Shown one piece after another: positions 103-17,200 of a DNA stretch of 36,255 nt. The DNA lies in contig JAEUWH010000103.1 of the NCBI GenBank assembly GCA_016785955.1, forward strand, positions 1 to 36,255, in the 5' to 3' direction. Origin of the DNA: Pseudobdellovibrionaceae bacterium (GTDB lineage Bacteria > Bdellovibrionota > Bdellovibrionia > Bdellovibrionales > Bdellovibrionaceae). The notes under the pieces were generated by a model. The model ran no database searches. It was not told the DNA's origin and saw nothing but the letters and a program-made list of their open reading frames with translations. Every line of letters starts with the position of its first letter. Positions within the stretch are counted from its first letter, which is position 1. Position numbers and translations under genes: made by a program.

Positions 103-696
103 CTATGAGAATGCTTCAACACAGCGCCGAAACGGCGCACTGGCCCATAGGATTTTCCAGCAAGCGACTTCAATGAGACCCTTATAAAGATTTGTTGTGA
201 TATTTGCGATCTTTGGAAATATGTAGCAAAGAATCATCAGCGGCGCGCAGATCGAAAGCAAAACCCAATAAAAGTAATAAAGAGCAATGGTGATGTAACG
301 AGCCAGCAGCAACAAAAGAAAGCTTCCAAAACTAAGGACCGCCATAAATAGGTCATCAAATTTTAGAAGCAGAACATTTTTAGCAGTGGCGTAGCTTTGA
401 GATTTTTCTTGAGCCATTCGCATAAAGGTCTCAAGGCCCGACATATTGTCGATCTTAAGAGCGATACCATCACAAATATCTAAGATGATATTGGACACTT
501 CCGGAAACGAGGTCAGGAGCAACGCCGCAACAAATGCTCGTTTTATTACATCTGGATAATTGGGGTCACCGGACTTTAAATACCCAAACACAACCGAGAA
601 CAAAATGGTCAAGGGCAGCATAATGTAGAAGAGCTGGCTTAGTCCCTGGTACAGGTCCGTGACAAGTGAGCCTAGTACGGCAAGATTTGGAATCAT
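103..696 (-). CDS. VirB6/TrbL-like conjugation membrane protein, short
   Basis: This is a polytopic inner-membrane protein of 197 residues with about five hydrophobic segments (roughly residues 22-40, 52-70, 115-132, 133-158 and a last one near 165-185). It fits the VirB6/TrbL family, which forms part of the inner-membrane channel of type IV secretion systems. Its start overlaps the end of the upstream VirB5/TrbJ-like gene by 4 nt. The protein ends abruptly after a WKILWA segment with a polar tail that does not look like the family's usual further membrane region. No other frame in the remaining 102 bases continues it. It may be truncated, or this lineage may have a short form. Confidence 0.6.
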   Translation of the reverse strand: MIPNLAVLGSLVTDLYQGLSQLFYIMLPLTILFSVVFGYLKSGDPNYPDVIKRAFVAALLLTSFPEVSNIILDICDGIALKIDNMSGLETFMRMAQEKSQSYATAKNVLLLKFDDLFMAVLSFGSFLLLLLARYITIALYYFYWVLLSICAPLMILCYIFPKIANITTNLYKGLIEVACWKILWASAPFRRCVEAFS

Positions 697-1394
697 TTTT
701 CACCTCTCATGCGTGGAAGTTTTGTTTCCTTTGGCAGTTCACCAAAACCGCGAGATAAGTCTTGGTAGTTTTCCTGAAAATTTTGGGTGGACATTTTTTC
801 TCGTCGATTTTCAGTGGCCAGGCTTTGCGCCATGATCTTCATCATTTGACTTTGTGTACGCAATAGCTGAGTAGTGACGCCAATTAAAACACCTATGGCT
901 TGGTTTTGAAGTTTCCCGGCCCCTTGCGGACTGACGACCTGAGCGTGAAAAAGAATTTTTTCGCGCTCGCGGTCCACTTGATCGGCGTAGTCATAAAGAT
1001 TTCGGTTCATCGCGATGACTTCAGCGACGCTTTGATCTTGCGACTTCATAAGGTCCTCATCCATTCCTGTGGGAACATTCCCGTAGATGGCTTGAATAGC
1101 TCTAAGCACAGAGTCCGCGTCCTTAAGATTACCGTAGACACCGGGATTAAAATTGGGGTTGATGATTCTGATCAGATCAAGGCCGCTACGGACACCGGAG
1201 TTGATGTCGCGCATAAGGTTCAAAGTGTCTTTGCCATTTTCAAGCACACTCTTAAGCGTCAGCACGGTTTGAATCGCCTGAGCCAGAATTTGGGTCAACA
1301 CGACCACATCGCCGCCGAACATGTCGGCTTTTGCAGGTCGTGGCCCCATCACAAAAAGAGACGATAATAAAAATGCGATTATTTTTTTCTTCAT
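693..1394 (-). CDS. TrbJ/VirB5-like exported conjugation protein
   Basis: The protein has 233 residues with a Sec signal peptide (KKK start, hydrophobic core, cleavage near PAKA-D at about residue 23). The mature part is mostly helical and polar, with many Gln, Asn and Leu residues. This is typical of TrbJ/VirB5 proteins, which are periplasmic and contribute to pilus assembly or tip. The family call comes from the signal peptide, helical character, size and position directly after VirB4, as in Trb operons. The ATG overlaps the VirB4 stop by 4 nt, and the stop overlaps the VirB6-like start by 4 nt. Confidence 0.6.
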   Translation of the reverse strand: MKKKIIAFLLSSLFVMGPRPAKADMFGGDVVVLTQILAQAIQTVLTLKSVLENGKDTLNLMRDINSGVRSGLDLIRIINPNFNPGVYGNLKDADSVLRAIQAIYGNVPTGMDEDLMKSQDQSVAEVIAMNRNLYDYADQVDREREKILFHAQVVSPQGAGKLQNQAIGVLIGVTTQLLRTQSQMMKIMAQSLATENRREKMSTQNFQENYQDLSRGFGELPKETKLPRMRGEK

Positions 1395-3853
1395 GCTGCC
1401 ACCTGCTTTAGTGATGAAACTCCAAAGGGAGCTAAAGCTGCCGCTTCATTCAGGGCGCTTTCGAGTGAATGTCCTTTATTTCTAAGTCGATCTAACAACT
1501 GGTTGTCTCTAGCGTCTGATGTAGAAATCCAATATTCCAAGGGTGAGGGTTGAATACGAATAACCTGGCGGGTTTCACCTTCCATCAAAAACCCTTCGCT
1601 GAATTGTCCATTTCGTTGCTCAAGGCTTTGCACAAGCCTAAGTTCTTGCGAGTTGAGTTTAAGGGCGTCTCGTAAAACATTGGTGTCGCCTTTTTGAAGC
1701 ATCACAAGTTTTGTGGCCGTATTGTTTAAAATCGCAGGGCCAAGGCCGCTTGCGATAATTTCCTCTACTCCTTGAGTGATAAACGTAATGCCGCTGCCAG
1801 TTTTCCGAAACGTGCGCGCGGCATACTCCATGAAATTTGCCGCAGGTCCTTTGAGTAACTCCCAGCACTCATCAAGCAATACTCGCTTGGGAACGGTTCG
1901 ATCTGATTCCACTTGCTCTAGAATAAAGTTTGTTAAAATCAGGATCATCACCGACTGAAGATCCGGGTATTGAGAAAGACCTTTTAAATCAAAGGCGACA
2001 ATCGGTTTATCAGCTTCGATCTTTCCCCTTCCATCAAGAATTTTTCCGTAGGGTGTCTGACCTACCCACGGGAAAAGCAGTTTTCCGATTTTTCTCAAAG
2101 CTTCATCAGAGTCAGCTAAGCAATACGCCGCTAAGTCAGATAAAACCGGCGAGCGCGGCACATCTTCGCTTCGTGCTTTTTCAAAAATGGCCGACAGCGC
2201 GGCTTCTAACAGAACTCGATCAAAACGATTCAGCTTTTCACCATGATCAACCACCATTTGCTCAACGATACTAACGAGACCCTTAAGCCGATCACCGTTT
2301 GGTGGCTGGCTTGGATCTTTCAGTTCAAACGGGTTGATTACGTACTGACCAGATAAATTGATTTCAAAATATTGACCGCACAAGACCTCGGTCATTTTCT
2401 TGTATGAGCCGCCGATATCGATCACATAGGTTCGCACACCACGAGCAATTTGCTGAAGCATCAAAAAATTGTTAGCAAAACTTTTTCCGCTGCCGCTAGA
2501 GCCTGTCACAAGTTTATTGAAATTACTTAAGCGATTTGAATACGCATTCAGCGAATATAGTGTGCCGAGCCGAGTTTTAGTTAAACAAAACGGGACGGCA
2601 TCGCCAGTCGCGGCGCCATAAAGCGGAAGAAAATCCACCATATTGTTTGTTTTCATGGGTTTGGCTCGCACAAGGTTCATCGGCGCAAGTGGCAAGTCAG
2701 ATTTAAATATTTTCCAAGCACCAACGGTTTCTTGAACGCCTTCTGATCCGCTTAGTGTCTTAAAGCGCGAGAGCACTTCTTTGGTGTTCAGATTTAAGCG
2801 CCGCTCACCCTCGCGACTAGCTTCATCTCGTAAAATGATGACCAGCTCCGCTTGATAGATTCTTTGCCCGGTTTCAATCAGCTCACGAATTAAGTCCGTG
2901 GTTTGACTCAGTCGTGATTCGCTTTCTAGATCTGATACGCGATTTGATGAACCCGCAGAAAGGGAGTGGGCCATGCGGCGCTTGCCTTCAAGGCTTTTCA
3001 TTTCTTTGGATTGATCTTGGATTTTAAAGGCTAAAAGAAGCTCGTACTTAAACGGCAGAGCTAAAAAGCCGCCCATCATTCCTGCGAACGTCATCTCGGG
3101 AAGAGTTTTGAGGGTGATGATCCTTGTTTTTTGCCGATCTAGGACAAAGTCTTCTTTATCTAGAATCAGATCCCCGAAGACGAGCTGCGCTCTTGGTGAG
3201 ATATCGTCTAAATCCGTAGGCCTTGGGGAAATGTTGGGTTTATCAACAGACTCCGATCTTTTGGGATTTAAATGCTCGTATAAAACTTTGGTGATAGATT
3301 CCCGGTCGCAATAGTCGACTGTAAATCCAAGAGATGAAAGTGTTCCCTTGGAAGTTTCAAGGGCTTGATTCAGTGATTGCAGACGATCCTCATAACCTCG
3401 CTCAAATTCTTCAGAAAATTTCTTTGTTTGTTTGAATGAAAATACACTTGGTTTTTCAACGCCGCTTGTTCGCAGGAAAAAGAAAAGACGCGGACGAAAT
3501 AATACTCCGGCTTGCGCTTCTTCTCGCAGTAGATCTGCTCTTTTTGCATCTAGGGATTGCAGGAATTGATTGTCCGTTGTGACAAGCTTTGTGTGCTTTT
3601 CAACGACGTTTTCAATATCGCTTTCCACTTTTACCAAGAACTGAGCCGTCATGCCTTCTGGTAGTGAATTGGTAAAAGCCCGAAGGCCCATCGTAAGCTG
3701 ATTGAGCCTTGACTCATCAAAGCATTCGATGTCGAGCGGCAAAAGTTCAAAGCCCGCCGATAGCGATCCATCAAAAAGAATCGTATGTGGAAAAGGTTCA
3801 GATTCAATTTCCCAGAATGGGAGTTGTTCACATAAAGATATGGCTGCACTCAT
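1391..3853 (-). CDS. VirB4/TrbE type IV secretion ATPase
   Basis: This is the 820-residue conjugative ATPase that powers pilus assembly and substrate transfer at the inner membrane. The N-terminal half matches the CagE/TrbE/VirB region. The C-terminal half is a P-loop ATPase with Walker A GSSGSGKS at 451-458 and a Walker B RVLLDECW near 657-664. A later conserved stretch, FITQGVEEI at about 691-699, follows. The full length equals the usual VirB4 size, so the gene looks intact. It overlaps both neighbours by 4 nt. This is the most secure member of the operon and identifies the region as a conjugation or ICE-like module. Confidence 0.93.
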   Translation of the reverse strand: MSAAISLCEQLPFWEIESEPFPHTILFDGSLSAGFELLPLDIECFDESRLNQLTMGLRAFTNSLPEGMTAQFLVKVESDIENVVEKHTKLVTTDNQFLQSLDAKRADLLREEAQAGVLFRPRLFFFLRTSGVEKPSVFSFKQTKKFSEEFERGYEDRLQSLNQALETSKGTLSSLGFTVDYCDRESITKVLYEHLNPKRSESVDKPNISPRPTDLDDISPRAQLVFGDLILDKEDFVLDRQKTRIITLKTLPEMTFAGMMGGFLALPFKYELLLAFKIQDQSKEMKSLEGKRRMAHSLSAGSSNRVSDLESESRLSQTTDLIRELIETGQRIYQAELVIILRDEASREGERRLNLNTKEVLSRFKTLSGSEGVQETVGAWKIFKSDLPLAPMNLVRAKPMKTNNMVDFLPLYGAATGDAVPFCLTKTRLGTLYSLNAYSNRLSNFNKLVTGSSGSGKSFANNFLMLQQIARGVRTYVIDIGGSYKKMTEVLCGQYFEINLSGQYVINPFELKDPSQPPNGDRLKGLVSIVEQMVVDHGEKLNRFDRVLLEAALSAIFEKARSEDVPRSPVLSDLAAYCLADSDEALRKIGKLLFPWVGQTPYGKILDGRGKIEADKPIVAFDLKGLSQYPDLQSVMILILTNFILEQVESDRTVPKRVLLDECWELLKGPAANFMEYAARTFRKTGSGITFITQGVEEIIASGLGPAILNNTATKLVMLQKGDTNVLRDALKLNSQELRLVQSLEQRNGQFSEGFLMEGETRQVIRIQPSPLEYWISTSDARDNQLLDRLRNKGHSLESALNEAAALAPFGVSSLKQVAA

Positions 3854-4173
3854 AGAGCGCCGCCTTTATTAAATCGTCGATACTGGCTATCTTTAGCGTT
3901 AGCAGAAGACACCGTCGGGGAAATCAAATGCTCTACAAAGTGTTGCAGGAAAAGATCGGGTTTTCCCTTTTTGAAAAAGAAAAGAACGAGACCCAAGACA
4001 AAACTTGTTCCAAACACCATTGGAATTTTAAGGCTTGTTGCGCCAAAGATCAGGTTTTGAACGGAAAGATTTAAGAGAAGGACAAGAACGTCGGAAAGTT
4101 CAAGTCCCAGAATTTTGTTTTTTGTCTCCAAAGTCCTAGGGACTGAAGAGGTTAAAAGTGTGTTTTCACTCAT
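3850..4173 (-). CDS. VirB3/TrbD-like inner-membrane protein
   Basis: The protein has 107 residues. The start is taken at ATG 4173, which overlaps the TGA of the VirB2-like gene (ATGA). A longer reading from 4251 would run through the VirB2 gene and is not needed. There is a polar N-terminus (SENTLLTSSVPRTLETKNK) and two adjacent hydrophobic segments at about residues 30-45 and 50-68, then a basic cytoplasmic tail. This is the VirB3/TrbD layout, and VirB3 is normally encoded just before VirB4, as here. It stabilises the channel with VirB4 and VirB6. Confidence 0.7.
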   Translation of the reverse strand: MSENTLLTSSVPRTLETKNKILGLELSDVLVLLLNLSVQNLIFGATSLKIPMVFGTSFVLGLVLFFFKKGKPDLFLQHFVEHLISPTVSSANAKDSQYRRFNKGGAL

Positions 4174-4460
4174 CAGCGCACCGTCTGTGAAATGAAGTCG
4201 ACAATGGCCTGCGCCCCAAACCCGATGATCGAGCCTAGAATGGCGTACCACATGTGAGTTTTAGCTCTTTCGTTACCGCTCATCATGGAGAAAGCTGCCC
4301 ACGCAATGCCAATGATTGAAAGAGTTGGCAGAATCACTCGCGTCAGTTTTGTTTGAATTCCCATCAATGATGATTCAACGCTGGCAAATCCAAGCTGCGG
4401 AACGATCATCAGGGCCAATACAAATACGGAATAATAAAAATATCGTTTTGTTTTAATCAT
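4173..4460 (-). CDS. VirB2/TrbC-like pilin
   Basis: This small protein of 95 residues starts at ATG 4460, preceded by a GGAGGTGA ribosome-binding site. It has a basic start (MIKTKRYFYY), a signal-peptide-like helix ending near LGFASVE at about residue 26, and then two further hydrophobic segments (about 44-60 and 70-88) separated by a short polar loop with GNERAKTH. This is the VirB2/TrbC pilin architecture. The TrbC-type protein is the major subunit of the conjugative pilus. Its position first in the recognisable set (B2-B3-B4) agrees. Confidence 0.72.
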   Translation of the reverse strand: MIKTKRYFYYSVFVLALMIVPQLGFASVESSLMGIQTKLTRVILPTLSIIGIAWAAFSMMSGNERAKTHMWYAILGSIIGFGAQAIVDFISQTVR

Positions 4461-4482
4461 ACGCTCACCTCCTTTAATTGAT

Positions 4483-4896
4483 TTAAGATGCAATGCTGTC
4501 CTCCTGCGCGACGTTTTTATCTGGAAACAGGCAGAGAAAAATATTTTCTGGCAGAAGCTGGACTCTAAGCGCGATGAAGCTTCCAGCAAGGCGTCCCTCG
4601 CCGATGCGATTCCAGCTTGAGCGCACTTCTCCCGTAGGGAGTTGATATTCCTCTAAACTAAGGACGACGTATTTCGTGTCGTCCTTATCATCAGGGACCA
4701 CAAAATACTGATGCGCTGGAAAAACAAAAAGCTTCAGACGAAATTTTTTTGACCCTTGCTTCAAAAATGCGATGCCGACGCTTTCGCCTTCGATAACTTC
4801 GCCGCTTGATGTGACTTCCCCTAGATAAACTCCGAAGCGATCGGACTTGCGGATGGGAACAACATTGCTAAATGGAAAATCCGTGTTGTTACTCAT
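4483..4896 (-). CDS. Small protein of the conjugation operon, function unknown
   Basis: The protein has 137 residues, with no signal peptide or membrane segment. The N-terminus is polar, followed by a likely beta-rich domain with alternating hydrophobic residues (FRLKLFVFPAHQYFVVP, and IALRVQLLPENIFLCLFP). The segment SSWNRIGEGRLAGSFIALR faintly recalls the DUF736 layout (an xxW-K/R-xG turn followed by a strand) found near many Trb operons, but the match is too weak to name. It overlaps the upstream zinc-ribbon gene by 4 nt and lies 22 nt before the pilin gene, so it belongs to the same transcript. Confidence 0.65.
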   Translation of the reverse strand: MSNNTDFPFSNVVPIRKSDRFGVYLGEVTSSGEVIEGESVGIAFLKQGSKKFRLKLFVFPAHQYFVVPDDKDDTKYVVLSLEEYQLPTGEVRSSWNRIGEGRLAGSFIALRVQLLPENIFLCLFPDKNVAQEDSIAS

Positions 4897-5144
4897 GCCG
4901 AAAACCTTTCCAGGTCGTACATATCAACAACGCCTTCGGTCCACCCGCATTCACAGCAGGTCAAATACCCGCTATGAAAATCAGTCAAACCGCCGCACTC
5001 AGGGCATTGCTCTCCATCAAGAGGCGGCCCTGACTTTTTAAAGTTAATAAATCGCTGTTTCAGTCCAGGTTCAGATCGTGACGAATAAAGCATTTCCGAT
5101 TCCTCACGGTAGATGGATCTTTTGTCTTTATGAGTGCGAGACAT
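4893..5144 (-). CDS. Small zinc-ribbon protein of the conjugation operon
   Basis: The protein has 83 residues. Two CxxC pairs, CPEC at about residues 48-51 and CCEC/CGW at 63-68, form a probable zinc ribbon. The N-terminal half is basic and polar. I chose ATG 5144 over the upstream ATG 5159 because a GGAGG box (about 5152-5156) sits about 7 nt before 5144. The ATG overlaps the preceding TAA (TAATG), which suggests coupled translation. The role is unknown. Zinc ribbons of this kind may bind nucleic acid or act as small regulators in mobile elements, but that is inference. Confidence 0.65.
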   Translation of the reverse strand: MSRTHKDKRSIYREESEMLYSSRSEPGLKQRFINFKKSGPPLDGEQCPECGGLTDFHSGYLTCCECGWTEGVVDMYDLERFSA

Positions 5145-5353
5145 TAGAAATCCCTCCATTGTTGAAGACTGAACGAAGAGCGCGTGCGCTTCATCTCAAG
5201 TAGCTCCCAGGATTCTTTAGTTAGATCAGGCGTTGAAAAAGATTTTTTCAAACGGCTCCACAGTGATGGTGGCTCGGCTTTTTCAAGCTGGATCAGCGAC
5301 AGATTCAGCTCACGAGCGGATCTTTTTTGATCGTTATTTTGTTTTACATTCAT
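5144..5353 (-). CDS. Small basic protein, first gene of conjugation operon
   Basis: The protein has 69 residues from ATG 5353. A strong AAGGAGGTG ribosome-binding site lies a few bases upstream, whereas the longer reading from 5425 has none. It is polar and mixed-charge, with a repeat-like SLW-RLKKSF and SW-LLEMKR pattern and no membrane segment. No family was recognised. Its stop overlaps the next start by one base. As the first gene after the inverted-repeat region, it may be a regulator or accessory factor of transfer. Confidence 0.5.
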   Translation of the reverse strand: MNVKQNNDQKRSARELNLSLIQLEKAEPPSLWSRLKKSFSTPDLTKESWELLEMKRTRSSFSLQQWRDF

Positions 5354-7539: not shown

Positions 7540-9099
7540 TCACTGCTTTATAACCAAGGGAATTTCCGCAATCTGACTCTTCGGAACCAAGTAAAACCCA
7601 TGCTCAGTACATGCAGTCTTAATCTCGTCATTATCAAAGTGTCCCGTCACAAGGCACCTCGTTGCAGCCGATGGCATTTCTTGAAGCCATTTAAGCCCAG
7701 TGTCTTCCGCCCCTAAATCATAATCGAATAACAACGTACATTTATCCGGATCATTCGCGATTTCGCCCTGCTCAGAAACAAGTTCAACGCCCTGACTTAG
7801 AAATTTAGTCTGCTTCAGCAATTGAGTATCATCGAACTTCAATTTCCACAAAGCGCGTCCCGAAACTTGATCGTCGAGTACATAGATCTTGGATTCAGAA
7901 TTAAATTTTAATCTGGGCAGATACCAAGGCGCTCGATCACTGATCGGCAGTCGCACTATAATAGTCGTGCCAACTCCAAGAACTGATTCTACATTGATCG
8001 TTCCGCCCCAAGCTTCGATATTTTCTTTCGCATGGGAAAGTCCAATACCTGACCCAGAGACTTTTCCTTCTGAAAAGTGCCTATCAAAAATCTTCGGTAA
8101 ATTTTCTGGTTTTATTCCGCATCCATTGTCAGATACAGAAATCGAAATCTCCGAGGCTAAATCTTTTACCTGAATAAGAATTTTACCCTTAGAGTTCATA
8201 GCTTGTAAAGAATTCGTTAAAAGATTTCCAAGAATGGACCGCAGTTCAAACGGAATATGTTTAACTAGGGCTGATGCTACAATGTCATCGATTTCAAATT
8301 TAAATTCTACTGACTGAGGAATAATAGTATTCATTTCACGCTTTGCTTGCTCGATAGAACTGTAAATATCTGTTTCGAGATTTTCTCCAAGCTTACTACT
8401 AGGTCGGTCATCAAGCTTTGATATTAAATCTTGAATTTGCGTAATGATAATTTCTAAAAGCTCACGGTCTTTTGCCACAGTTGCTGGTAATTTACCAGGA
8501 ATACGCAATAGTGCAGCAAGTGGTGTGCGGAGGTTGTGCCGTACTTGCTGCGCGATTTCCGACTTAGCGACTTTTTTTTCTAGTTCGAGTTCATGATTAA
8601 ATTCTTTTATCAAACGTCTTTTCAGAAAGCGAGTCTGAGGGATGGATACTAGATTTAAAATAACCCAAATTAAAACGGCGTAACCCAATAACCCAAACCG
8701 ATTGTATTCATATATGATTTCATCAGAGTGATAGGATGATAAGCCAGACTCGACGTTAACTTGAATAGTATTGTGAGAAAAGTGATGCCAGAATCCAGTT
8801 TCATTAAATATTTCCGCTTTTGTGGGGATAACAAACGATTTACCAGGAAGATTAGATCTGTATTCAATTTTTGTGAAGCTCGACAACCGCGCTTGTTGCA
8901 GAATTAAACTAGCTTCTCGAAAGTCGCCAATTTTAATTAGACGAGATAAAAATCGAGTATGCTCTTCCGCCACACTTTGAAGATGTAACGAGTTGAACAA
9001 AATAGATATGGCCATGAGCAGAATCAAAAACAGTCCCGAAACAATATACTGTTTTCTTTCAAAATCTTTAATTTTCTGATGGGGTATATTTGAATTCAT
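7540..9099 (-). CDS. Hybrid histidine kinase of the YcaO/peptide operon
   Basis: The protein has 519 residues. The layout is TM1 (about 18-38), an extracytoplasmic sensor of about 95 residues with no recognised domain, TM2 (about 136-152), then a HisKA-type dimerisation helix with H188 (QQVRHNLRTPL). The ATPase domain follows, with N-box N292/N296, DNGCGIK from 324 and GSGIGLS at 349-355. A C-terminal receiver-like domain keeps D409/D410, phospho-acceptor candidate D459, T485 and K507. It is the last gene of the operon, and its ATG overlaps the YcaO stop by 4 nt. It presumably senses an external signal and passes phosphate to the operon's NtrC-type regulator. The signal may be the modified peptide, but this is inference. 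Confidence 0.88.
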   Translation of the reverse strand: MNSNIPHQKIKDFERKQYIVSGLFLILLMAISILFNSLHLQSVAEEHTRFLSRLIKIGDFREASLILQQARLSSFTKIEYRSNLPGKSFVIPTKAEIFNETGFWHHFSHNTIQVNVESGLSSYHSDEIIYEYNRFGLLGYAVLIWVILNLVSIPQTRFLKRRLIKEFNHELELEKKVAKSEIAQQVRHNLRTPLAALLRIPGKLPATVAKDRELLEIIITQIQDLISKLDDRPSSKLGENLETDIYSSIEQAKREMNTIIPQSVEFKFEIDDIVASALVKHIPFELRSILGNLLTNSLQAMNSKGKILIQVKDLASEISISVSDNGCGIKPENLPKIFDRHFSEGKVSGSGIGLSHAKENIEAWGGTINVESVLGVGTTIIVRLPISDRAPWYLPRLKFNSESKIYVLDDQVSGRALWKLKFDDTQLLKQTKFLSQGVELVSEQGEIANDPDKCTLLFDYDLGAEDTGLKWLQEMPSAATRCLVTGHFDNDEIKTACTEHGFYLVPKSQIAEIPLVIKQ

Positions 9100-9902
9100 A
9101 TCGTTTCCCCATCGGCCAAGATTGCGAACCTAGCAACCGTGAGGGGCGAATTTTTAAAAACACTGATTTCAGAAAAATCAAAATCGACTTCGCCGACATT
9201 TGGTGCAGGACAAGCTTCCTGAGTTTCCATAACCGTCTGACTTAGTAAAGGAGTCATTTCCTGAAAAAATGACTCCGATACGTGCCAAGGTCTTTCTTTA
9301 TCGGACAATTCAATATTTTTCGTTGTAAGCCATAAAAAGCTAGGGATGGCCTCAACCAAGGATAGCTCTACGGCCTTTTCTAAGGAGTCAGAAAATGAAA
9401 AACCAAATGAGGTTTGGCCGTTCCCTTGCAACTTACAAACGACCCCGTGGAGAGATGCTGGGGTGAGCATTTGATAAAATTGTATTCCCACCGCTGGGTT
9501 GATTTCTTTAAACTCAGCCACCAGTTTGGAGTGGGCAGGTATACTTTTAAATGGAATATGATTTCTTAAATGGTTCTTAAGGTAAAACCGTTCAAGTAAT
9601 TCATTTTTCGCATGAACTCGCGGATCAAAGGCACCGCCAGATACAGCCATACCCGTTGAGTCGATATTTTTTGTCATACAAATCAGACGCTCGAAACTTT
9701 CTGCCACTGCTTTTTCAAGCGCGATTTCACGATGTGAATCTAGGCCCCGACCTTTTGCTGTTATGCCGTTCCATGTGATCTCAGTTGAAAAATCAAAGAG
9801 ACCAGGCAATAGCGCAGACGTCGTTTTAAGCTCTGTGAAGCTTGGCGAAAGCTCATTTCGTTTTGTATAGAGCCAACTGGCTAATGGAGTTTTATTCGCC
9901 AT
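9096..9902 (-). CDS. YcaO-family enzyme, compact form
   Basis: The protein has 268 residues. YcaO enzymes use ATP to activate peptide backbone amides, giving azolines, thioamides or amidines in modified peptides, or act on ribosomal protein S12. Here the ATP/Mg-binding region GRGLDSHREIALEKAVAESF-ER spans 51-72, with glutamates at 58, 63, 68 and 71. A second block, GGAF with ELLERF at 101-106, and a third, FGFSFSDS and SLVEAI at 181-186, follow the family order. The length is at the short end, and the C-terminus lacks the proline-rich end of azoline-forming enzymes. No E1-like or TfuA partner gene is nearby. The ATG lies inside the preceding binding-protein gene (22-nt overlap), so the two are translationally linked. 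Confidence 0.82.
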   Translation of the reverse strand: MANKTPLASWLYTKRNELSPSFTELKTTSALLPGLFDFSTEITWNGITAKGRGLDSHREIALEKAVAESFERLICMTKNIDSTGMAVSGGAFDPRVHAKNELLERFYLKNHLRNHIPFKSIPAHSKLVAEFKEINPAVGIQFYQMLTPASLHGVVCKLQGNGQTSFGFSFSDSLEKAVELSLVEAIPSFLWLTTKNIELSDKERPWHVSESFFQEMTPLLSQTVMETQEACPAPNVGEVDFDFSEISVFKNSPLTVARFAILADGETI

Positions 9903-11419
9903 AACTGATTATTTGCATAAAGCTCAGAGAGTTCTAATTTCCAAGGTTTTCTAACTAAAGCCGTATAAGGAAGGGCTATCAGTGGAAAAACTGTCGGTCT
10001 GGTCAATGCTTCGTAATGAAGGTTTTTAAGTTTGTTAATCCGTACGGCCTTATCGTCGGTTGCCATATAGTCCGAAAGCCACTCAGCACGCTTGTTTGGG
10101 GATAAACCCAAAACGCCGGAATTTAATGAATAGGAAATTAAACTGATGTCCTCCATGAATCCTGTATCAGTGAACCCGATAAACGCATGAGGAATTTCAT
10201 CTGGCTTAAGATCTTTGTTAAAGTCGGGAATGTAACTGATTACCTCGGACTCAACCATAGGTAGCTTTTGTTGAATGGGTTCCGCCCAGTCTTTTAAAGG
10301 AACACGGGTTAATAACCCTAATTTCACTTTAAGTGCCGGTGCCGTGCGGTCTTTTTTGGATTCCTTTTTATATAATGCCTGCTGCTCTACAGTGAGTCCG
10401 CCTTCTCCTAAATTAGGGAAAAACTCGTCGCGTTGCTCGGCTCCTGGTGTTTCGGAAAAGAGCTTTGCGAAAACTTCTTTTAAAGCTTGGCCGATATATC
10501 TTCTTTCACTGGCAGTGAGTTGTTGCTCGCCCTTTTGGGTAAAAACTAAAACGAGGGTGCGGATTTTCATTGTGACAAGTAGATCGTTATCTTGATTTTG
10601 TTTCGCGTACTTTATGACATCTTCGGTTTTACTGCGATCAACCGTCATAATGTGATCGATGAGACCATCTTCGAATGCCTTTATGCTGTTTGTTCCGGAT
10701 TTTGAATCCGTTGGTACGAGAGTTATCTGCTGAGGTACGTTTTTAGAAGCAAAGTAGTGATGAGTGTTCAGTTTAAGCTCAATTTTTCCATTTCCGTCAT
10801 CGCTTTGAACCGAATAGGGTCCACTGGTTTCTGAGTAATCAACTATTTTTAAAGTAGAGGGATCAACGCTTGATTTAGGAACTACCGCAAAATCAATAGC
10901 TCCTAGCATAGGAAGTAGAAACGATTTTTTGCCTTTAGCATTTATAAAAACAAAGTTTCCTTCTTCGCGAATACCGGGACAGTCGTCTTCTGTTGATTTG
11001 ATATCAGCACCGGGACACACAATGTCTTTGAAATTTCCATGCGTATTCCCCGATAAGACCAGCAGTCTTTTTAACGAGAAAACCACATCATCGGCAGTTA
11101 TCGGTTTACCAGAGATAGTTTTAAGATCCTTACGAATAGTCAGCTTTAATTCGTCGCCTATCCAGTCGACCTTTTCGGCAACGCCGGGCTCAATAGTTCC
11201 ATTAGCAGAAATTTCAACTAGTGGCGAGAACACGTTTTCAAGAAAAATGTATTCGAAATCAAATTTGATTGCCGTCGGCTCATAAGCACTGACTAAAAAT
11301 CGCACGGGAAATGCGACTTTTAGGTGATTAGAATCTTTGTTTTTATTCATGGTGATAAATCCCCCAAGCAGTAACAATATGCTTACAACAATAGTAATTA
11401 TTTTAAATTTTATTGTCAT
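9881..11419 (-). CDS. Membrane-anchored family 5 (peptide-type) solute-binding protein
   Basis: The protein has 512 residues. It has one N-terminal membrane helix (about 8-26) with no lipobox, so it is either an uncleaved anchor or a signal sequence. The mature part matches extracellular solute-binding proteins of family 5 (OppA/DppA-like): ANGTIEPGVAEKVDW with ADDVVFSLKRLL, a SGPYSV loop, and late elements before the C-terminus. The usual permease and ATPase genes are absent. It is encoded 8 nt after the small exported peptide gene and before YcaO. A peptide-binding receptor for the operon's own product, feeding the kinase, is an attractive but unproven role. Confidence 0.85.
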   Translation of the reverse strand: MTIKFKIITIVVSILLLLGGFITMNKNKDSNHLKVAFPVRFLVSAYEPTAIKFDFEYIFLENVFSPLVEISANGTIEPGVAEKVDWIGDELKLTIRKDLKTISGKPITADDVVFSLKRLLVLSGNTHGNFKDIVCPGADIKSTEDDCPGIREEGNFVFINAKGKKSFLLPMLGAIDFAVVPKSSVDPSTLKIVDYSETSGPYSVQSDDGNGKIELKLNTHHYFASKNVPQQITLVPTDSKSGTNSIKAFEDGLIDHIMTVDRSKTEDVIKYAKQNQDNDLLVTMKIRTLVLVFTQKGEQQLTASERRYIGQALKEVFAKLFSETPGAEQRDEFFPNLGEGGLTVEQQALYKKESKKDRTAPALKVKLGLLTRVPLKDWAEPIQQKLPMVESEVISYIPDFNKDLKPDEIPHAFIGFTDTGFMEDISLISYSLNSGVLGLSPNKRAEWLSDYMATDDKAVRINKLKNLHYEALTRPTVFPLIALPYTALVRKPWKLELSELYANNQLWRIKLH

Positions 11420-11427
11420 AATCTTTT

Positions 11428-11715
11428 TTATCTAACAGCTGATCCAGGTCCGCCGCCAAAACATACCGTAGCTACTTCAACGTCTCCGCTTTTAAGGCGT
11501 CCCTCTAATTCAAGGACGCTTAAAATGTCTTCATCGATTTGAACACATTGATCTGGTTGCAAGACTAGAGTTTTGCTATCTCCAAGAATCTTAAGAGCCC
11601 ACGCGATTTGAGTCTTCTGAAGCGGCGTTAATTCTTTAGTCTTCTCAGAATCGGCAAGTGCAGTAAAGTTGACTCCGATTAGACCTGCGAAAAGTACTAT
11701 TAGCGTTTGTTTCAC
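11428..11715 (-). CDS. Small exported peptide, candidate substrate of the YcaO enzyme
   Basis: The protein has 95 residues from a GTG start with AAGGGG about 7 nt upstream. The GTG is one base after the regulator's stop. It has a Sec signal-like N-terminus (MKQTLIVLFAGLIGV, with ALA-D cleavage near residue 21), an acidic helical middle (LTPLQKTQIAWALKILG), and a short C-terminus, ATVCFGGGPGSAVR. The Cys85-Phe-Gly-Gly-Gly-Pro-Gly-Ser end is glycine-rich and has Cys and Ser residues, the kinds of side chain YcaO enzymes cyclise, while Gly-rich segments occur in many peptide cores. Cys57 is the only other cysteine. A secreted precursor is odd for a cytoplasmic enzyme, so it could instead be a periplasmic partner protein. 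No known precursor family was recognised. Confidence 0.6.
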   Translation of the reverse strand: MKQTLIVLFAGLIGVNFTALADSEKTKELTPLQKTQIAWALKILGDSKTLVLQPDQCVQIDEDILSVLELEGRLKSGDVEVATVCFGGGPGSAVR

Positions 11716-11716
11716 T

Positions 11717-13102
11717 TTAAACCCCTTTTGTTAACGGTTGTTGTATTTCGATTCCATGTTTTTTCATTTTATCGCGAACAGTGCTACGACTAATCCCAAG
11801 CTCACGGGCCGCACCTGAAATACTGCCGCTTTTTTCTAAGGCTTTAACGACAATGCTTTTCTCGCTGTTCATTTGAGTAATCTTCAGTGTTTCTAAATCA
11901 ACAGGTTTTATTTTCGTATTCAGAGAATCCCGCCGAGTTTTCAGTAAGTCGGCATCAAGATGCTTTTCAGAGGAGAGGTTCACTAGAAAACGAATACAGT
12001 GCTCAAGCTCGCGAACATTTCCGGGCCAGCTTAATTTTTTTAGTTCCTCTGCTGTAGATTCCAGAAGAATTTTATTCTGCCCTGATTCAGCATTGGCTCG
12101 CTCTAGAAAAGCCTGCGCAAGGGCCGGAATATCTTCGGGTCTATCTCGCAGCGGCTTAATATGAATAGGAAGGACGTTCAGCCTGAAAAACAAATCTTCA
12201 CGAAACGATTTCTCCACGATCAATTTTTCAAGTGGTGCATTGGTCGCTGAAATCAGTCTGAAGTCTATTTTCTTAGTTTCGTTTGAACCAACGGGAGTGA
12301 TGGTCTTTTCCTGAAGCACGCGGAGTAAGGTGGCTTGAAGGTGCTTCGGCATCTCACCAATTTCGTCTAAGAAAATTGTTCCGCCGCTAGCTGCCTCAAA
12401 ATGACCTTTGCGACTACGAGCGGCTCCCGTGAATGCGCCCTTTTCATGACCGAATAATTCACTTTCAATTAAATTTTCAGGAATGGCGGCGCAGTTAACG
12501 GCAATGAATGGCATTTTGCTTCTGGCTGAATGATCGTGAATAGCACGAGCTACTTTTTCTTTTCCGGTTCCGTTTTCACCACGAATTAAAACGGAATCAT
12601 TGGCAGGTCCAAATTTTTGGATCAGCCGTGCGACTTCTGCCATTGATTCAGAAACACCGATCATCCCAACGGACAGGATCAATTTTTGATTTTCAGAATG
12701 CGTGGATACTAACACCGGCTTCACGCGACGCTCAACCTCACGGCAAGCGCGATGAAGAATTCCTAAAAACTTTGCTTCACCGATGTCTTTTTCAACAAAA
12801 AAGACTGCACCAGAGTTTAATGAATTATTATGGGCATCAATGGAGTCATCGCCAGATAGGGCGAGCACGGTAAGGCTAGGCTCAAGCTCTTTAAGCTTGC
12901 GGATGGTCTCAGGTCCTTGGATCTCCGGCATGTGGTAGTCCACAAGTGCCAGGGAAAACGAAATGAGTTTCTGACGGATCAGAGCGATGCCCTCATCGCC
13001 GCTAGCGACTGGTCGAACTAGAAAGCCCTCGTCTTCAAGGAAGGCTGCCATCGTGCCCCGAAACGCCGGATCGTTATCGACTAAAAGGATAGTATGCTTC
13101 AT
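11717..13102 (-). CDS. NtrC-type sigma54 response regulator
   Basis: The protein has 461 residues and all three parts. The receiver (1-120) has acidic residues D9/D11 and phospho-acceptor D55. The AAA+ activator domain has Walker A GENGTGKE at 175-182, the sigma54-contact loop GAFTGA at 222-227 and Walker B near 241-247 (GTIFLDE). A C-terminal Fis-type HTH (about 415-450, ISGAARELGISRSTVRDKM) ends the protein. Once phosphorylated it should open promoters dependent on sigma54. It is the first gene of the operon and the only stand-alone response regulator here, so the operon's hybrid kinase is its likely partner. Confidence 0.93.
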   Translation of the reverse strand: MKHTILLVDNDPAFRGTMAAFLEDEGFLVRPVASGDEGIALIRQKLISFSLALVDYHMPEIQGPETIRKLKELEPSLTVLALSGDDSIDAHNNSLNSGAVFFVEKDIGEAKFLGILHRACREVERRVKPVLVSTHSENQKLILSVGMIGVSESMAEVARLIQKFGPANDSVLIRGENGTGKEKVARAIHDHSARSKMPFIAVNCAAIPENLIESELFGHEKGAFTGAARSRKGHFEAASGGTIFLDEIGEMPKHLQATLLRVLQEKTITPVGSNETKKIDFRLISATNAPLEKLIVEKSFREDLFFRLNVLPIHIKPLRDRPEDIPALAQAFLERANAESGQNKILLESTAEELKKLSWPGNVRELEHCIRFLVNLSSEKHLDADLLKTRRDSLNTKIKPVDLETLKITQMNSEKSIVVKALEKSGSISGAARELGISRSTVRDKMKKHGIEIQQPLTKGV

Positions 13103-13491
13103 CCTTTGTTACCCCCACCGGCTAGAAGTGAGTACAAATTCGGTGCCCGAACTTTAAACAGGTAAACCGAACTTATATTTATTTGGTTCGATCTGGCGCT
13201 AAACAAGCCGACATTTGCAAGCGTAGGGTATGTCAGAAGTGTATGGTCATTTTGCTACCGCACCAGCGGTGCGAGGTAAGTGGTAGAAATTAAGGGTGTT
13301 TTTTCGATCAGGGGGTGGTGGCTGTCCGCCAGCGTGGATCGATAGGTATAGTTTGAGACTAAAATTAGGGCGGGCGCATGCCAAGTATTTGTTGTTGATG
13401 CGAAAAGTTCAGAATACGAATGCAACTGATCAGTGAAAACCTACGGGTCTATTGACCATGCATGATAATGCTCTATAAACTTTTAATTATC
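13103..13491. other. Divergent intergenic region of the peptide operon
   Basis: No gene is visible in this stretch. It must hold the promoters of the minus-strand five-gene operon and of the plus-strand lipoprotein gene. One perfect inverted repeat, CGCACC-AGC-GGTGCG (13259-13273), is a candidate operator. A second hairpin, GGTGG/CCGCC with one G-T pair, lies near 13315-13330. A GG-N10-GC arrangement of the kind used by sigma54 occurs on the minus strand near 13197-13210, but it matches the rest of the consensus poorly and is not claimed. Confidence 0.4.
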
Positions 13492-14343
13492 ATGAAAACA
13501 CTTTGCCTAATGTTCATTTCGAGTCTTCTAATGAGCTGCGCTAGTCATAAAATGAAAATTGAGCCTCCTGCGGTCTATGTATTGGGATCCATTCACGGCA
13601 ATATGCTGGAGCGTTCGCATTATACTTTGAAAGATTTTATTTCCGTTCTTTACCTTTATGAGCCGACACTCATTCTCACGGAAGTACGGCCAGAATATTT
13701 AGATGCAGTTGATGGCATTATCCATGGAACTCCCGAACAAAGTATTGTGTATGCCTACGCCAAAGAGACCGGAGCGCAGATTATTCCGGTCGACTGGCAT
13801 AATGATGAGTATAATTTAGAAAGTGCTCAGAACGAAAAAAAGTCAGAAAAAATAAAAAAAGAAATTCAACCTCTTTTTGAGAAGTTCATAAATGATATAG
13901 GTTCACTTGCCCAGTCCCAAAAACCCGATACGCAAGAGGCGATTCGCAAGCGGTATGATATTATGGCGGCCCATGGACTCACGGCTTTGCGTAAGCGGGA
14001 TGGCCATATCTGTGAAAATATCAAAAAGCAAAAAGACAAATTATCTAAAGAGCGGGTCATGATAGTATTTGGAGTTGCTCACAAATACTATCTTGAAGAT
14101 TGCGTTCGCGAACTGGGCATTCGACCGTTAACTTTCGAAAGTTGGTACCTCGCAGAAGATGCGAAGAAAGTCGTAATTTCAAAGAGCTTAATCGAAAATT
14201 CCGTGCAAACTTTAAAAACTGCTAAAGAGCTGTCGAGCGCAAGATTAAAATCGGGTTATTATAAGACCGATGTAGAGAATTTAAAAGACGTACTGGGCGA
14301 GCTTGATACGTGGATTGATAAGTTAAATGGATTGGGTGACTAG
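13492..14343 (+). CDS. TIKI/TraB-like lipoprotein
   Basis: The protein has 283 residues from ATG 13492, which gives a clean lipoprotein signal (MKTLCLMFISSLLMSC, lipid on Cys16). An upstream ATG at 13462 would only lengthen the signal. Two GxxH motifs, GSIH at 32-35 and GVAH at 194-197, plus a glutamate in LILTEVRP (E64) and an RKR-D-x-x-I-C-x-N-I stretch near 167-177, match the TIKI/TraB/GumN superfamily. Its members include metal-dependent proteases and pheromone-shutdown proteins. The C-terminal 80 residues are helical and basic. It is divergent from the YcaO/peptide operon and might act on secreted peptides, which is speculative. Confidence 0.7.
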   Translation: MKTLCLMFISSLLMSCASHKMKIEPPAVYVLGSIHGNMLERSHYTLKDFISVLYLYEPTLILTEVRPEYLDAVDGIIHGTPEQSIVYAYAKETGAQIIPVDWHNDEYNLESAQNEKKSEKIKKEIQPLFEKFINDIGSLAQSQKPDTQEAIRKRYDIMAAHGLTALRKRDGHICENIKKQKDKLSKERVMIVFGVAHKYYLEDCVRELGIRPLTFESWYLAEDAKKVVISKSLIENSVQTLKTAKELSSARLKSGYYKTDVENLKDVLGELDTWIDKLNGLGD

Positions 14344-15640: not shown

Positions 15641-15874
15641 CTAGTGTTTTGTTCGAGCTTCCGAGGCGTCGGCAGCCGATTTAGTTTTGGGTTTGATATG
15701 TAAAGCTTTATTGCCAGGAAAAAATCGCGGACTTCCCCAAGTAGACGTTCGCGATTGGTAAACGACTTCCGCTTGTGCTCGCCAGACCCAAGCTTGCAAC
15801 ACATCGAGTTTTCCAACGACAGCAAATGCGATGACGACTCCGGCAATCCATGTAAAAAGTTTATCTAAGTTCAT
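15641..15874 (-). CDS. Small single-TM membrane protein
   Basis: The protein has 77 residues with a GGAGAT ribosome-binding site before ATG 15874. One membrane helix (about residues 8-26, FTWIAGVVIAFAVVGKLDV) is followed by a basic polar tail (KPKTKSAADASEARTKH). An overlapping frame at 15613-15846 is a shadow. The gene overlaps the HTH gene upstream by 4 nt. The role is unknown; a small anchor or holin-like protein are possibilities I cannot separate. Confidence 0.55.
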   Translation of the reverse strand: MNLDKLFTWIAGVVIAFAVVGKLDVLQAWVWRAQAEVVYQSRTSTWGSPRFFPGNKALHIKPKTKSAADASEARTKH

Positions 15875-16440
15875 GTGTGATCTCCTTCGAGTTGTAGACT
15901 CAGTTTCTTGGTTTTTAGTTTTTGAACGATGTTAAAAACATGCGCTTGTCTCCACAGTTTCCCGTGACGAGTTTTGAAACCTTTGCCGCTCAAAAATTTT
16001 GCGATCTCCGTAGGAGTCCGTCCGAGCTGACGTTGTTTTTCGATCATTTGTAAGATTGGGTACTCGCGAGGGTCCTTTTGAAGTCGTCCTTCCAGGTAAC
16101 AATAGCCATAGGGTGGTGGTGCTGAGTTCTTAAAAGTCTGCCGTTGATTTGGTGAAAAGCTGACGGACTTATTTGTTCGCAACGTCACTCCCAGCTTTAC
16201 GAGCTGATTTCGGACTGTTGAATATGATAATCCAAACTGCTCAGCGATCTCGTAAATGGAATAACCTTGATCGTAAAAAGTCTTGAAATCAGCGTTTGGT
16301 TGGGAAATTAGGTGGATGCTGATCTGAATGAAATCATGTACTTGGCTTAGATTGCAGGTTGTCGGAAGATGCCTACCAAATTTCAAGATATTGAAATCAC
16401 TGATAAATTCCCTAAAAATCAAGCAAGATGTTCGAACCAA
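15871..16440 (-). CDS. Recombinase-C-terminus-like DNA-binding protein
   Basis: The protein has up to 189 residues. A helix-turn-helix (about 65-88, SIYEIAEQFGLSYSTVRNQL) is followed by a region that resembles the DNA-binding 'recombinase' domain of large serine recombinases: PPPYGYCYLEGRLQ, then ILQMIEKQRQLGRTPTEIAKFL and GKLWRQAHVFNIV. The N-terminal serine-recombinase catalytic domain is missing. The start is uncertain. The only in-frame candidate found is a TTG at 16440 with no ribosome-binding site, so the true start may be further in or the gene may be the remains of a larger one. It is first in a three-gene minus-strand run. Confidence 0.5.
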   Translation of the reverse strand: MVRTSCLIFREFISDFNILKFGRHLPTTCNLSQVHDFIQISIHLISQPNADFKTFYDQGYSIYEIAEQFGLSYSTVRNQLVKLGVTLRTNKSVSFSPNQRQTFKNSAPPPYGYCYLEGRLQKDPREYPILQMIEKQRQLGRTPTEIAKFLSGKGFKTRHGKLWRQAHVFNIVQKLKTKKLSLQLEGDHT

Positions 16441-16660: not shown

Positions 16661-16695
16661 TTGAGTTTTTAACTACAATGGGTTACATTGTAGTT
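16661..16695 (+). promoter_or_regulatory. brnTA promoter and palindromic operator
   Basis: A perfect 10-bp inverted repeat, AACTACAATG (16671-16680) and CATTGTAGTT (16686-16695) around GGTTA, ends directly at the ATG of brnT. A -35-like TTGAGT (16661-16666) and a -10-like TACATT (16684-16689) are 17 bases apart. The repeat covers the -10, so BrnA binding would block transcription. The transcript would start at or very near the ATG, implying little or no leader. Confidence 0.7.
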
Positions 16696-16968
16696 ATGGT
16701 CATTGTTTGGGATGAAAAGAAAGCTAAGTCAAATTTAACGAAATACGGTGTTAGTTTCGAAGAGGCGCAGACAGTTTTCTTTGCTCAACAATCAGTTACA
16801 TTGGATGACAATAATCATGATGAACCGAGATTTATTACAATTGCATTGTCTTTAAAATTAAATCTTTTAGTAGTCGTTTATGCATATAAGCATCACGATG
16901 AGATTCGAATAATCTCTGCTCGAAAGGCCACAAAAAAGGAGGCTAAATTTTATGAAGAAAGAATATGA
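16696..16968 (+). CDS. brnT: BrnT-family toxin
   Basis: The protein has 90 residues from ATG 16696, the first base after the palindromic operator. An ATG at 16678 would sit inside the repeat. It shows the BrnT layout: VWDEKKAKSNLTKYGVSFEEA, then DDNNHDEPRFITI, VVVYAYKHHDEIRIISARKATKKE. BrnT toxins are RelE-like ribonucleases that stop translation and pair with BrnA. The C-terminal coding region overlaps brnA by 17 nt, so the two are made together. Confidence 0.88.
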   Translation: MVIVWDEKKAKSNLTKYGVSFEEAQTVFFAQQSVTLDDNNHDEPRFITIALSLKLNLLVVVYAYKHHDEIRIISARKATKKEAKFYEERI

Positions 16969-17200
16969 TTTTTCTAAAGGAAAAGTACGCAAATCTCCAA
17001 TTGCTGATCCTAAGACAACAAAAGTGCAAACAAGTATTCGCATGGACTTTGAAGTTATGGAGTGGGCGCAAAAAGAAGCTGAAAAGCTGGGTGTTGGATA
17101 CCAAACTTTTCTTAATATGAAACTAAAGGAAATAATGAATAAGCCCTCTATTGAGGAACGTGTAGATATTCTTGAAAAGAAAATTCTTAAGCGCGCTTAG
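16952..17200 (+). CDS. brnA: BrnA-family antitoxin and repressor
   Basis: The protein has 82 residues. The N-terminal tail (MKKEYDFSKGKVRKSP) is the toxin-binding part of BrnA. A ribbon-helix-helix DNA-binding domain follows (about 28-62, TSIRMDFEVMEWAQKEAEKL), and then a short coiled segment. It neutralises BrnT and represses the shared promoter by binding the palindrome at 16671-16695. It lies 18 nt before the lytic-transglycosylase-like gene, so it may be the front of a longer transcript. A frameshifted relative occurs at 18719-18962. Confidence 0.82.
   Translation: MKKEYDFSKGKVRKSPIADPKTTKVQTSIRMDFEVMEWAQKEAEKLGVGYQTFLNMKLKEIMNKPSIEERVDILEKKILKRA

Follow-up and report, generated by a model that had tools for sequence, protein, structure and literature searches.

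TraC, like PrgZ, is a pheromone-binding protein of enterococcal conjugative plasmids. PrgZ is a pheromone-binding solute-binding protein (SBP) of the same family as the SBP described below (PMC10924461), and in Gram-positive bacteria it serves the uptake of peptide for a receptor in the cytosol. Kinases that are activated by an adjacent SBP are also known (PMC11113362), and for LuxP/LuxQ and the SBPs near AgtS/AruS (PMC11113362) the SBP gene adjoins the gene of the kinase that it presumably controls. YcaO cyclodehydratases and their relatives, such as McbD, LynD/TruD, E. coli YcaO and the archaeal thioamide YcaOs, share a fold and an invariant Glu/Arg ATP-Mg core and have a small Cys-bearing protein encoded beside the enzyme, while partner-free standalone YcaOs are known from bottromycin (PMC8442711). 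In the streptamidine-type RiPP clusters of Actinobacteria, which came to light by genome mining, a small precursor gene accompanies a standalone YcaO that is uncharacterised (PMC8442711). Sec signals on RiPP precursors, in turn, are called highly unusual and have been shown experimentally only for bufferins (PMC12452194); bufferins and oxazolins are MNIO-modified RiPPs with long precursors, an MNIO plus partner, several Cys residues and copper binding, and bufferin Cys residues are enzymatically modified before export.

The locus described here lies in a window of 36,255 nucleotides, the whole stretch of DNA that was analysed, from a Pseudobdellovibrionaceae bacterium (contig JAEUWH010000103.1). 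Five genes run in the order sigma54 response regulator, small exported protein (X), SBP, YcaO and histidine kinase, all on the minus strand and with gene ends that touch or overlap; X starts from a GTG codon one nucleotide past the stop codon of the response regulator. The operon and its surroundings comprise the following features:

13133..13148, minus strand: sigma54-type promoter element with the sequence GGGCACCGAATTTGTA, located 30 nt 5' of where the response regulator starts
11717..13102, minus strand: NtrC-type response regulator with receiver, sigma54-activating AAA+ and Fis HTH domains (Pfam; syntenic in relatives)
11428..11715, minus strand: X, exported 95-aa protein and proposed signal precursor (open reading frame and homologues)
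9881..11419, minus strand: SBP_bac_5 peptide-type solute-binding protein with an N-terminal hydrophobic segment (Pfam, 1.5e-13)
9096..9902, minus strand: YcaO enzyme of 268 aa with an intact catalytic core and without a Pro-rich C-terminus (profile, alignment and model)
7540..9099, minus strand: membrane histidine kinase with a C-terminal receiver-like domain (HATPase_c, 3.3e-24; receiver hint in the L034 homologue)
103..4589, minus strand: conjugative type IV secretion genes for TrbL/VirB6, a VirB5-like protein, the TraC/VirB4 ATPase, a VirB3-like protein and TrbC/VirB2 pilin (Pfam)

We propose that X gives rise to a peptide or small protein that YcaO modifies, that is exported and that acts as the ligand in a self-amplifying signalling circuit on conjugative elements, a reading that we consider about evenly balanced between right and wrong. 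Like PrgZ, to which it is related in sequence, and TraC, the family 5 SBP of the locus is encoded near conjugation genes and is a presumed peptide binder, whereas here a membrane kinase of a Gram-negative bacterium is the candidate receptor and the peptide is probably modified. Compared with LuxP/LuxQ and AgtS/AruS, the SBP is of the peptide-type family 5, and the operon adds a candidate ligand and a putative modifying enzyme. X shares with bufferins the long precursor with a Sec signal, but it is accompanied by a YcaO, has a single conserved Cys and sits in a sensor operon. The original prediction had noted that modification normally comes first and export second, so that a Sec signal would make the order of events unusual here; bufferin precursors, which have Sec signals and are modified ahead of export, provide a precedent (PMC12452194). 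For the streptamidine-type clusters, by contrast, no Sec signal, SBP, kinase, sigma54 regulator or conjugation link has been reported (PMC8442711).

The setting is larger than first suggested, namely a phylum-wide, conjugation-associated signalling cassette that is apparently undescribed; no paper that combines YcaO, a two-component system, a substrate-binding protein and a RiPP was found in the searched set of openly licensed papers. If our reading is true, no other YcaO enzyme is known to us that shares a sensory operon with its own receptor. Bdellovibrionota would also gain a candidate signal between cells, and in a Gram-negative phylum a modified peptide would be tied to the control of conjugation. 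Moreover, a YcaO product would then carry a Sec signal, for which MNIO-made bufferins are so far the only experimental case (PMC12452194).

The operon is conserved well beyond the window. Five-gene synteny holds at 16 loci of the order, three of them copies in the same genome (the window and two further full operons, L026 and L040), and X orthologues fill the same slot in the 15 further operons. When the window is compared with L026, the regulators are about 75% identical, SBP and kinase reach 59%, X has 50% and YcaO 42%, which makes X and YcaO the fastest-evolving members. Across Bdellovibrionota, bacteria of the predatory type, the set is kept at dozens of loci, and 124 of the 369 genomes of the phylum contain matches to the YcaO profile. 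YcaO also occurs with SBP and kinase, often together with a sigma54 regulator, in most of 40 inspected loci beyond the near clade, where the genes are arranged as RR-X-SBP-YcaO-HK or YcaO-X-SBP-HK-RR. The SBP gene adjoins the membrane histidine kinase gene, with YcaO between them in some layouts, and a small exported ORF stands directly 5' of SBP in nearly all cassettes phylum-wide. The original prediction had placed X next to YcaO; the enzyme is indeed close by, but the direct neighbour is SBP, with YcaO following it.

This association is close to exclusive. Over the 369 genomes, matches to the X profile are confined to places next to this YcaO; the exceptions are a match at one contig end and three weak, partial matches that proved unrelated on inspection. 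Of the 51 places that match the SBP profile, nearly all adjoin YcaO. The clearest exception of an SBP without full YcaO is a decayed cassette (L131, 5424-7375) in which a YcaO of just 105 aa accompanies an intact SBP, and in which X and kinase are gone. As such, X behaves as a small gene strictly linked to a putative modifying enzyme and is lost alongside its decay. A scan of contigs for the YcaO pattern gave matches solely in Bdellovibrionota MAGs that the genome searches already covered.

Several lines of evidence bear on X itself. Judged from substitution patterns, its ORF is a real gene and no chance ORF, since dN/dS values of 0.15-0.33 among close pairs mark it as translated and constrained. 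The original prediction of an exported 95-residue protein holds with exact coordinates, and the predicted -1 residue (A21) is A, S or G in 44/44 homologues, as expected for a putative Sec substrate. Searches of Pfam, NCBIfam and PDB sequences returned no relative of X, and its AlphaFold model (pLDDT 47) is uninformative about the fold. The relevant parts of X are:

11653..11715, minus strand: Sec signal peptide, residues 1-21, with predicted cleavage between ALA and DSE (sequence features only)
11545..11547, minus strand: Cys57 codon, with conservation confined to the near clade
11461..11463, minus strand: Cys85 codon, candidate modification site (43/44 Cys, 1/44 Ser in the aligned homologues)
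11428..11460, minus strand: hypervariable Gly-rich tail after Cys85, stop codon included (0-28 residues, no conserved Ser)

In the mature part of the 44 homologues, Cys85 has the highest conservation, tied only with L68. It had been suggested that the C-terminus CFGGGPGSAVR forms a modifiable core with Cys85 and Ser92, and that an alignment of this end would reveal whether it is conserved. Cys85 bears this out, whereas the Gly-rich stretch is not conserved and the tail varies freely in length, the shortest versions having zero or one residue past the Cys (ends GTICF, SSICY and GAICD). Because the part after Cys85 is free to vary in this way, the alignment points to an (S/T)(I/V)C motif as candidate core rather than CFGGGPGSAVR. 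Ser92 (codon 11440-11442, minus strand) was ruled out as a modification site, since the tail is not conserved. Homologues beside YcaO that lack both Cys and Ser at the end, which the original prediction had named as evidence against a core, do not occur among the 44, although several more distant cassettes are without Cys. Overall, the earlier precursor idea is partly supported.

The gene also varies in copy number and integrity. A tandem pair of X genes lies 5' of a single SBP in L060 (9914-10692), and in L036 and L037 it is the helix-Cys unit within X that is duplicated instead. In L133 (3464-3748, the same locus as L056), an in-frame TGA interrupts X 5' of the conserved Cys while YcaO is intact, which may reflect a decayed gene or a sequence error.

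In distant cassettes, different small exported proteins occupy the X slot, with ends such as EPSCWTAPY, EPSCVSM, GHGGSCE and SGGGGGASCG; in two cases (L072, L110) a GGATC motif is internal to the protein. Elsewhere Ser stands in place of the missing Cys (L101, L086/L122, L124), and such C-to-S swaps are recurrent. Cys-free peptides occur as well, in L111, L114, L116, L129 and others, the four named having only Gly/Ser-rich ends, which counts against a YcaO-modified ligand. Exactly one mature Cys, lying at most 16 residues from the end, is found in 21/59 non-redundant X proteins; in the controls, small exported ORFs of the same loci other than X, the count is 1/67 (p 3e-7). Counting against the same model, 22/67 of the other small exported proteins have a Cys near the end. 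A looser comparison, with any Cys at most 25 residues from the end in 57/76 X proteins vs 23/49 other small exported ORFs, is too weak to serve as an argument.

By sequence, predicted fold and ATP-Mg core, the window's putative modifying enzyme belongs to the YcaO superfamily: the family profile matches MJ1094 (2.1e-14) and McbD (1.7e-13) as well as TruD, LynD, MusD and E. coli YcaO, and the structural model (pLDDT 88) has its best match in 6ci7, a YcaO with AMPPCP/Mg (E 2.4e-8). E68, R72, E101, E104, R105 and E184 are invariant and E71 is nearly so in 36 aligned sequences, and nearly every member of a broader set keeps this Glu/Arg core, E71 included; the residues are conserved across sequences of 15-45% identity. 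The direct Pfam match of the window YcaO is weak (E 0.012, below the cut-off), which counts against our model, as does the loss of the Pro-rich end in the window's clade. Specifically, the window protein ends in ILADGETI, and longer relatives of 310-360 aa end in PHPLG, PHPFN or PHIIP. A Pro-rich C-terminus has been described as characteristic of azoline-forming YcaOs (PMC8442711), so the chemistry of the window enzyme may differ or be reduced. Its 268-aa length, the clade's missing Pro-rich end, the lack of an E1-like or TfuA partner and the fixed linkage to SBP and kinase set it apart from the described YcaOs. The five operon genes include no E1-like/ocin-ThiF partner and no TfuA, and TfuA (PF07812) has no match in the same genome, which likewise counts against our model; an MNIO (DUF692) enzyme is not encoded among the five genes either.

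Together with the regulatory elements, these data are compatible with a circuit in five steps. In the window's clade, the sigma54 sites take the form RGGCAC-N5-TTGTA or TGGCAC-N5-TTGAT, and 13 of 23 such sites in 1.26 Mb sit 11-40 nt 5' of a regulator gene (13 loci, window included); in many loci, perfect or near-perfect sigma54 elements lie directly 5' of the first cassette gene. Their position at the cassette 5' ends suggests positive autoregulation, in which the response regulator would drive its own operon. Cytosolic YcaO would then use ATP to modify the backbone at (S/T)(I/V)-Cys85, for instance to a thiazoline or by another change of the amide backbone, before X is exported by Sec and presumably cut by signal peptidase between A21 and D22, as the conserved residues there would allow. 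The membrane-anchored SBP, whose profile matches OppA, MppA and PrgZ structures (PrgZ 4faj, E 4.5e-7), would bind X or a C-terminal fragment and switch on the adjacent histidine kinase in a LuxPQ-like manner. The kinase would finally phosphorylate the sigma54 regulator, so that the operon, and probably other genes too, would be expressed more strongly; genes for conjugative transfer are plausible targets, to judge from location only.

The alternative that survives best holds that X is an unmodified periplasmic accessory of SBP and kinase, a co-sensor or inhibitor, with Cys85 acting in redox chemistry or an intermolecular disulfide and with YcaO modifying something else (e.g. SBP) or regulating by ATP binding. 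The constant position of X directly 5' of SBP would fit such a role, as would the bulk of the protein, which is a conserved small domain unlike a short leader, the shortened window YcaO and the near-invariant Cys pair of SBP (C135, C147). X divergence, moreover, tracks SBP most closely: partial r is 0.56 for SBP, 0.38 for YcaO and 0.03 for the kinase sensor domain, a crude measure corrected for regulator and kinase core in which the pairs are non-independent, and one that gives a hint of contacts of X with SBP and YcaO. An accessory role, however, leaves unexplained why X-like matches are confined to sites beside intact YcaO and why very short, nearly domain-free peptides with Gly/Ser/Cys tails take the X slot in L106, L108 and L127. 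We regard it as less probable than the proposed ligand role, and as more likely wrong than right.

A structural disulfide between Cys57 and Cys85 in an ordinary periplasmic protein, with the YcaO neighbourhood incidental to the Cys, is unlikely. Both residues are present in most near relatives, and disulfides are normal in the periplasm, but Cys57 is missing in L039 and L042, two members of the near clade, and in most of the distant homologues, all of which retain Cys85 or, rarely, a Ser in its place, which rules out this bond as a general role. In addition, 40 of 68 non-redundant X proteins have an odd number of mature Cys residues, and where Cys85 is lost among homologues, Ser replaces it. 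That the modified peptide is a toxin or antimicrobial against competitors, sensed by SBP, kinase and regulator to control its production, is more improbable still, since the cassette gene lists hold no immunity gene, dedicated exporter or protease and most of X is a folded domain that has one conserved Cys, even though YcaO products are often antibacterial, as in the microcin B17 family, and many producers autoregulate through a dedicated sensor.

For the proposed YcaO-modified ligand, the genomic surroundings point towards conjugation. Homologues of the type IV secretion genes of the window flank many other cassettes, and in 50 genomes 30 of 98 YcaO places lie at most 12 kb from a TraC/VirB4-type ATPase, compared with 1.4 expected under assumed random placement; conversely, 30 of the 71 such ATPases have a cassette nearby. 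A sigma54 element was sought before the secretion operon and not found, which counts against control of conjugation by the circuit. As a tentative extension, less probable than the ligand role itself, Bdellovibrionota may possess a large family of autoinducing systems, each with a mating pheromone that YcaO modifies and Sec exports, and that is read by SBP and kinase to control conjugation. Such a pheromone would be a Gram-negative, RiPP-based counterpart of the enterococcal pheromone systems.

The neighbourhood of the cassettes contains further features. Beside the secretion genes of the window lie two small conserved genes (4483-4896 and 4893-5159), which are found again near other YcaO cassettes. 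On the other side of the operon, 15871-16440 encodes an HTH protein with a weak serine-recombinase domain match, and distant homologues of it adjoin the cassettes L026, L028, L033, L037 and L040. It is followed by a two-gene pair at 16678-17200 that we take to resemble a BrnT/BrnA-type toxin-antitoxin module. In L061, a CRISPR-like array with more than 50 copies of the repeat GTTCTGATTGGCTCACAGATTCCCATCTGTTATTCT at 66-nt spacing (10413-14109) lies a few hundred bases from the YcaO cassette.
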